Source: Bacillota bacterium
Lineage (GTDB): Bacteria; Bacillota; Clostridia; Oscillospirales; Acutalibacteraceae
Reading direction: 5' to 3'
Length of the DNA stretch: 56,789 bases
Assembly: GCA_021771115.1 (NCBI GenBank)
Contig: JAETPP010000003.1
Span: 1-56,789, forward strand
In this document: piece after piece, positions 21,517 through 21,830 of the stretch
How positions within the stretch are numbered: position 1 is the first letter of the stretch
Layout of the letters: each line of letters starts with the position of its first letter
The notes under the pieces: generated by a model
Database searches by the model: none
Told to the model about the DNA's origin: nothing
Seen by the model: the letters and a program-made list of their open reading frames with translations, nothing else
Position numbers and translations under genes: made by a program

Positions 21517-21606
21517 GGAGAAGTACCCAAGTGGTGAAGGGGCTCCCCTGCTAAGGGAGTAGGTCGGGAAACTGGCGCGAGGGTTCAAATCCCTCCTTCT
21601 CCGCCA
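21517..21606 (+). tRNA. tRNA-Ser (anticodon GCT)
   Basis: GGAGAAGTACCCAAGTGGTGAAGGGGCTCCCCTGCTAAGGGAG...GAGGGTTCAAATCCCTCCTTCTCCGCCA. Confidence 0.96.
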
Positions 21607-21645
21607 AATAATGGGAACAGCCTTTTGGCTGTTCCCATTATTTTT
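21607..21645 (+). terminator. Terminator of tRNA-Ser(GCT)
   Basis: AATAATGGGAACAGCC-TTTT-GGCTGTTCCCATTATT, perfect 16-bp arms, followed by TTT. Confidence 0.9.
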
Positions 21646-21650
21646 ACAAA

Positions 21651-21772
21651 GAGGGATTTGAACCCGCGAGGGTCTGACCGTAAAGAAAATGTACCGGTGG
21701 TACATTTTTAGGTCAGAGCGGCGAGGAGGATACGACGAGCCATCTGGCATGAAATGCCAGGTCAAATCCCTC
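21651..21772 (+). other. Structured multi-branch element, candidate ncRNA or small mobile element
   Basis: Outer arms GAGGGATTTGA (21651-21661)/TCAAATCCCTC (21762-21772); inner TCTGACC/GGTCAGA with AAAATGTACC/GGTACATTTT; second hairpin CTGGCAT-gaa-ATGCCAG. Confidence 0.6.
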
Positions 21773-21782
21773 CTTCTCCGCC

Positions 21783-21830
21783 AAACAAAGAAAGAAGAAA
21801 TTCCTTTTGGAATTTCTTCTTTCTTTGTTT
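21783..21830 (+). terminator. Second perfect terminator-like hairpin after the duplicated tRNA 3' end
   Basis: AAACAAAGAAAGAAGAAATTCC-TTTT-GGAATTTCTTCTTTCTTTGTTT, perfect 22-bp arms. Confidence 0.8.

Follow-up and report, generated by a model that had tools for sequence, protein, structure and literature searches.

The gene for tRNA-Ser(GCT) in the stretch of DNA analyzed here (the window, 56,789 nt from a member of the Acutalibacteraceae) is followed by a second copy of its own 3' end, and the question that this locus raises is what lies between the two copies and how it came to be there. A sequence-only reading of the locus had pointed to the duplicated tRNA 3' end, two perfect terminator hairpins and a set of nested arms, all of which were confirmed letter for letter, and the reverse complementarity that it had stated between the left arm and the T-arm holds at 13 of 13 positions. 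The parts are as follows:

21517–21606, + strand: host tRNA-Ser(GCT), intact (ARAGORN and Rfam RF00005)
21585–21608, + strand: first copy of the repeated segment D, inside the tRNA, from the T-loop to CCA plus AA (exact 24-nt match to 21762–21785)
21606–21643, + strand: tRNA terminator hairpin, 17 bp (inverted repeat I4, 100% complementary)
21651–21665, + strand: 5' arm, the reverse complement of the host T-arm (13/13 at 21652–21664)
21662–21761, + strand: structured family core, P2 to P6 (covariance model match at 21651–21735 with 101.3 bits, a score for a copy that itself belonged to the training set of the model)
21662–21673, + strand: P2 hairpin ACCC-GCGA-GGGT with a GNRA-type loop (model helix 1, 97–99.7% of cells paired)
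21674–21716, + strand: P3, with the outer stem CTGACC/GGTCAG and the inner stem around AAAATGTACC-GGT-GGTACATTTT (covariation in both stems)
21717–21743, + strand: linker and P4/P5 region, shortened in the window copy (alignment A1)
21744–21760, + strand: P6 hairpin CTGGCAT-GAA-ATGCCAG with a GNA triloop, the loop type that predominates in the family
21762–21785, + strand: second copy of D, the tRNA 3' segment (exact copy of 21585–21608)
21783–21830, + strand: second terminator hairpin, 22 bp (inverted repeat I1, 100% complementary)

D is a 24-nt sequence (TCAAATCCCTCCTTCTCCGCCAAA), and the outer arms GAGGGATTTGA (21651–21661) and TCAAATCCCTC (21762–21772) are both present and pair with each other as P1, the stem formed by the 5' arm and D. 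The two terminators are unrelated in sequence, and the arms of each (21606–21622/21627–21643 and 21783–21804/21809–21830, respectively) are perfect. The element folds at −59.9 kcal/mol compared with −37.95 kcal/mol (sd 4.42) for 200 dinucleotide shuffles (z = −4.97), none of which was as good. The P5 hairpin, which is present in most copies of the family, is absent from this one (alignment A1). None of the other three tRNAs in the window has a reverse T-arm segment of its own: tRNA-Leu(GAG) and tRNA-Ser(GGA) reach 7/13 at best downstream, and the best match for tRNA-Ser(TGA), 10/13, is the tRNA-Ser(GCT) element itself. Two orthologous loci behind tRNA-Ser(GCT) differ from that of the window. 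At one, in genome G009 (L031:409–875), a GNAT acetyltransferase gene lies between the tRNA and the element, and at the other, in G023 (L024), just GAGGGATTTGAGCCCGAGCG is left after the terminator, probably as a decayed copy.

BLASTN searches in relatives found the core beside tRNA-Gly(TCC) in G008, tRNA-Leu(CAA) in G016, tRNA-Ser(GCT) in G009, and others. A covariance model was built from nine copies, and the genome search that the sequence-only reading had proposed as a check yielded homologous copies elsewhere, beside many tRNAs. Within the genus, 13 of 29 genomes have matches at E up to 0.01, a few of them fragments; at larger scale, the family is present in 149 of the 398 genomes of the GTDB family (66 of 135 genera) and in 74 of the 392 genomes of the class. 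Named records containing the exact core pattern are all from Clostridia, mostly metagenome-assembled genomes (MAGs), and a search of viral contigs, phages, and plasmids gave no match. The membership of the window copy in this family is clear.

The comparison with Rfam, likewise suggested earlier, left the element core without a match: tRNA alone reached the gathering cut-off of release 15 in the window, and no Rfam family matched the cores in further loci at E up to 1, 0.01, or 0.1. A skipping-rope match (RF02924, 31.7 of the 36.7 bits required, L039:1254–1348, on the strand opposite to the tRNAs) was rejected as an identity for the core, being below threshold, on the other strand, and off the core. 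Just downstream of a tRNA-Trp array lies a near-threshold match to Gut-1 RNA (RF01706, L234:1369–1444 on the minus strand, 45.2 of 50 bits, E 2e-06). We found no description of such an element in a literature search that covered open-access papers. Together, these results describe a family of small structured elements at the 3' ends of tRNAs that is real, widespread, and apparently not described before. Its apparent newness rests on an inverted arm made from the target, described later, and on the lack of a matching family in the searched libraries and open-access papers.

Because the covariance model holds a generic arm and neither the tRNA nor D, the association with tRNAs is not built into the search. 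A tRNA or tmRNA on the same strand precedes 114 of the 147 distinct copies, with 26 anticodons plus tmRNA represented; the distance is within 300 nt in 108 of these 114 and within 80 nt in 90. The remaining copies mostly lie at contig ends or behind tRNAs apparently split or cut off by other integrative elements, and a few are unplaced. At three loci (L213, L214, and L114), the element is preceded by the 3' half of its host tRNA alone, from the anticodon arm onward, as though integration of a different element had taken place in the anticodon loop. Copies behind tmRNA (L098:1432–1515, L080, and L136) have the tmRNA T-arm playing the same part as the T-arms of tRNAs. The usual order is tRNA, terminator, 5' arm, core, D (i.e., the tRNA 3' copy), and terminator. 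The core is conserved and about 100–130 nt long, and a typical unit is non-coding, spans about 200 bp, and contains no integrase gene. The 3' junction lies in the T-loop, with D often exactly 22 nt (T55 to CCA), and across copies the direct repeat ranges from 22 to about 75 nt. Units also form tandem arrays of about 200 bp, with periods mostly of 155–222 nt, and one near-complete genome (G164) contains 12 copies against 43 tRNA matches. Some cores contain additional branched modules, e.g., GGGGCGCTGGTCGC..GGCGAG (L034:3300–3420, L037:2760–2860, and L032:2690–2810).

The ends of the unit follow the tRNA behind which it lies. Delimited by comparison at other tRNAs, the homologous core is continuous from GAACCC to GACGG at Lys, Leu, Arg, Glu, Trp, Ser, Ala, Pro, and Gln tRNAs as well as at tmRNA, and the sequence flanking it on both sides is target-specific. 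Across the family, the 5' arm and GAACCC together form the reverse complement of the T-arm, and in 99 of 102 cases the arm fits its own tRNA above the average of other tRNAs (9.8 vs. 7.9 of 12 positions). This specificity for the tRNA is visible only by comparing copies and could not have been seen in a single one. In P1, 502 of 624 cells are Watson–Crick compared with 411 when partners are shuffled, and P2 (ACCC-GNRA-GGGT) tracks the T-stem, becoming ACTC/GAGT at GAG-type tRNAs and ACCT/AGGT at AGG-type tRNAs. The reverse T-arm match behind 229 distinct tRNAs is bimodal, mostly at most 9/13 or 11–13/13, in proportions that reflect loci picked for elements and not a genome-wide rate; where it is 11–13/13, the core is almost always present too. 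A reverse T-arm copy without a core stands behind the last terminator or tRNA at five loci (L073, L158, L162, L079, and L193), perhaps as a remnant of excision or deletion. The left terminator was rejected as a part of the mobile unit, as it is about 62% identical where cores are at least 92% identical; the right flank is 58% identical. We know of no element that carries an inverted copy of the T-arm of its host gene at almost any tRNA.

Core similarity ignores the tRNA locus. Cores at the same tRNA in different genomes are on average 74.1% identical and pairs differing in both are 71.9% identical, leaving vertical inheritance at each tRNA locus unsupported. Forty copies come from genomes with several sites, and for 31 of them the nearest core belongs to a different tRNA in a different genome, a count to be read against sparse sampling, and strong constraint could mimic recent transfer in such similarities. 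Both empty and filled sites, which the sequence-only reading had proposed to look for, were found in congeneric genomes: in the genus of the window, the spacer between the Gly and Arg tRNAs lacks the element in 16 species and contains it in four, and the unit behind tRNA-Trp in G249 is absent from the congener G139, where a second type of element comes immediately after the arm and closes with the same tRNA 3' copy. We infer that the filled sites are insertions, with losses possible at single sites. Since core similarity is independent of locus ancestry and a single genus has both filled and empty sites, the element acts as a mobile, non-coding unit, and its mobility is well supported. The suggestion of a very small, non-autonomous element placed at the 3' end of a tRNA is thus supported by its occurrence at many tRNAs in many genomes, by the filled and empty congeneric sites, by the covarying stems, and by the lack of an Rfam match, and it withstood the computational refutations that the sequence-only reading had named. 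The alternative suggestion of an att scar is not supported as a full account, since the duplicated segment is made afresh from every target tRNA and the core represents a conserved structured family.

The second structured element behind tRNA-Trp (L234:1480–2035 on the minus strand and L141:2845–3590) opens with the same reverse T-arm (GAACC..GAGGCAYGCGAAGCRTGCC) and has the same tRNA 3' copy at its end, and parts of it recur elsewhere in these genomes. Within it lies a repeat of about 226 bp (L141:3175–3400) that has dozens of copies, 75–90% identical, across the genomes of the genus and looks like a MITE.

The stems of the core covary across homologs, the support that the earlier proposal of a structured element called for: there are 252 double-changed cells, and the covariation score is 0.418 compared with 0.138 for shuffled and at most 0.06 for slid controls. 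Compensatory changes are abundant, and the types of mismatch that accompany them bear on whether DNA or RNA is folded. In P3b, the inner P3 stem, the non-Watson–Crick cells are G.T in 7 cases, A.C in 10, and other in 12 of 1,120, whereas the acceptor and T stems of the host tRNAs have 66 G.T and 4 A.C among 828 cells, i.e., the G.T share is 0.6% in P3b against 8.0% in the tRNA stems; the P3 hairpins were selected for at least 6/8 Watson–Crick pairs, which lowers every mismatch type alike. The triloops behind the core are GNA in 80 cases and the complement TNC in two, a bias to one strand. GNA and GNNA loops form extraordinarily stable DNA mini-hairpins (PMC4686876). The near-absence of G.T from P3b and the one-strand GNA triloops favor folded single-stranded DNA of the tRNA sense over RNA. 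One P3a pair is U.G in 18 cases against a single A.C, as RNA would show, and the GNRA-type P2 loops and the tandem G.A/A.G pairs, which occur in the P3 outer stem of about half of the family copies, also suit RNA. A kink-turn reading of these tandem G.A pairs was dropped, the 3-nt bulge being absent. Sigma-70 promoter scores in the left region before the arm are no better than those of its own shuffles. On this comparison of base pairs and loops, a fold at the DNA level is favored. The proposal of a tRNA-derived structured ncRNA is weakened on three counts: the core is not tRNA-derived, promoter enrichment is lacking, and the conserved P3b stem is short of the G.U pairs that an RNA stem would be expected to have.

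None of the copies examined encodes its own enzyme, and no autonomous relative of the element was found. Candidate mobilizers resident in the genome were considered. A reverse transcriptase was rejected since many carriers lack RVT_1: it is absent from 9 of 16 high-copy carriers and from G008, and G008, G164, G346, G335, and G467, all without it, each have several to 14 copies. A Y1 transposase was likewise rejected, Y1_Tnp being absent in G000, G008, G009, and G016, which are main carriers of the genus. No IntI was seen beside copies among the portion whose neighbors were examined. Large serine recombinase genes end directly before the terminator and element at three loci in three genomes (L030, L072, and L149); these were set aside as a lead to the mobilizer and more probably belong to integrative elements that had entered that tRNA 3' end. 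Simple exchange by a tyrosine integrase at the T-loop was also set aside because a hybrid tRNA would result whenever the target changed, so that the process must include copying or extension from the target. Genes lie between D and the next arm in two arrays (L031 and L218). In the latter (G467:C33:25300–30500), behind tRNA-Ser(GGA), a 3.2-kb block between copies with identical cores holds two genes, one for an HTH-AAA_28-CYTH protein and the other for a 402-aa protein without a Pfam match.

We therefore compared the element with known systems. Like integron attC sites and cassettes, it has complementary outer ends and a variable middle, probably with a folded, strand-asymmetric structure that the paired ends and the one-strand GNA loops would fit, and it forms direct-repeat arrays with a fixed exchange point and occasional genes between units (L031 and L218). 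The outer sites of attC are RYYYAAC and GTTRRRY; by eye, the ends of the element, like CTTGAAC and GTTCRA, depart from this consensus with C at the fourth position. Also unlike attC, its outer ends are T-arm sequence that changes with the target and its core sequence is strongly conserved, and unlike cassettes its units are mostly gene-free. An attC site is recombined as a folded single strand (PMC2727003). We take attC as the closest working analogy and do not class the element as attC. Islands integrated at tRNAs are characterized by a displaced tRNA 3' fragment that lies in direct orientation (PMC4383910), and the element shares with Islander-type islands and phages in tRNA or tmRNA genes an intact tRNA followed by such a fragment, but it differs from them in its unit of about 200 bp, the lack of an integrase, the same core at many tRNAs, the inverted T-arm copy, and the tandem arrays. 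Short, non-coding, structured, dispersed, and without its own enzyme, it resembles MITEs, whereas it has no fixed terminal inverted repeat, its ends are target-made, and its target is the tRNA 3' end only. With SINEs it shares non-autonomy and direct repeats of variable length, but many carriers lack a resident RVT_1 and its stems are of DNA type. It is also a dispersed palindromic non-coding repeat as in REP/RAYT systems, from which it differs in its tRNA-specific placement and in the lack of Y1_Tnp in the main carriers of the genus.

The explanation that we put forward, and to which we give about an even chance of being right, is that of a non-coding mobile family inserting behind tRNA genes of Clostridia as an attC-like folded-DNA element targeted to T-arms. 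The mobile form would be the tRNA-sense strand folded as single-stranded DNA, with the base stem P1 built of T-arm sequence of the target. Within the T-loop, near T54/T55, either recombination or extension of an end would duplicate the 3' part of the tRNA and thereby leave the tRNA intact. Movement would take place in trans by an enzyme, in the manner of integron attC sites and with the T-arm as target, and an extra copying step from the new target is assumed for the inverted arm. A more ambitious version, which seems to us rather unlikely, is a tRNA-anchored integron-like system in which the T-arm of almost any tRNA would be the landing site, the folded single-stranded core would be attC-like, genes such as the GNAT gene at L031 and the 3.2-kb block at L218 would be cassettes, and more than one core type (the second in L234 and L141) would use the same ends.

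The fold could instead belong to a structured small RNA or cis-acting RNA, in which tRNA read-through or an unrecognised promoter yields a transcript of 5' arm, core, tRNA 3' end, and terminator that forms P1 from the T-arm and acts on the adjacent tRNA or in trans, the family spreading by ordinary horizontal transfer. The strong covariation, the GNRA-type P2 loop, the tandem G.A motifs, the one U.G-rich pair, and the terminator directly 3' of the element speak for such an RNA; yet P3b has almost no G.U pairs to match, the loops that follow the core correspond to DNA mini-hairpins, a promoter signal is absent, a strong terminator separates the tRNA from the element, and regulation poorly explains 26 anticodons plus tmRNA with target-made ends, so that we consider it unlikely. 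Target-primed reverse transcription as in SINEs would have a nick in the T-loop prime the copying of a core RNA and a template switch onto the tRNA gene produce the inverted 5' arm, the duplicated 3' end being a target-site duplication. This accounts for a direct repeat of variable length from a fixed start point, and the arm could arise through the GAACCC/GGGTTC microhomology common to all T-arms, but RVT_1 is missing from many carriers (past presence is possible) and the stem signature is of DNA type, making this course highly improbable in our estimate.

The core might also move without a dedicated enzyme, template switching during replication or repair at the T-arm palindrome copying it between tRNA loci and unequal recombination changing the number of units. 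T-arm microhomology at both core ends, near-perfect palindromes, unit numbers that vary between arrays, and the fact that a mobilizer was not found are consistent with this; alone, however, it does not explain why one conserved core should stand behind tRNAs across about 30 families of a class, or why cores at different tRNAs should be very similar between genomes, and we regard it as quite improbable. Finally, the copies might be remnant attachment sites of ordinary tRNA-integrating islands, each a displaced fragment left where a large island once occupied the tRNA 3' end. The tRNA 3' fragment in direct orientation and the serine recombinase genes that adjoin some copies (L030, L072, and L149) fit this origin. 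One and the same structured core separating the tRNA from the fragment at unrelated tRNAs across many genera, the tandem units at about 200 bp, and the target-made inverted arm do not, and the conserved covarying core refutes island remnants as the main reading, which is barely credible.

The family accounts for one source of the partial tRNA 3' ends found in genome annotations. It may have gone undescribed since it is short and its ends resemble tRNA fragments, and many of its carriers are gut MAGs. With the attC-like, T-arm-targeted element as the working explanation, discovery of the enzyme would give a new targeting rule and possibly a new single-stranded-DNA recombination system, one that would write next to tRNA genes without breaking them.
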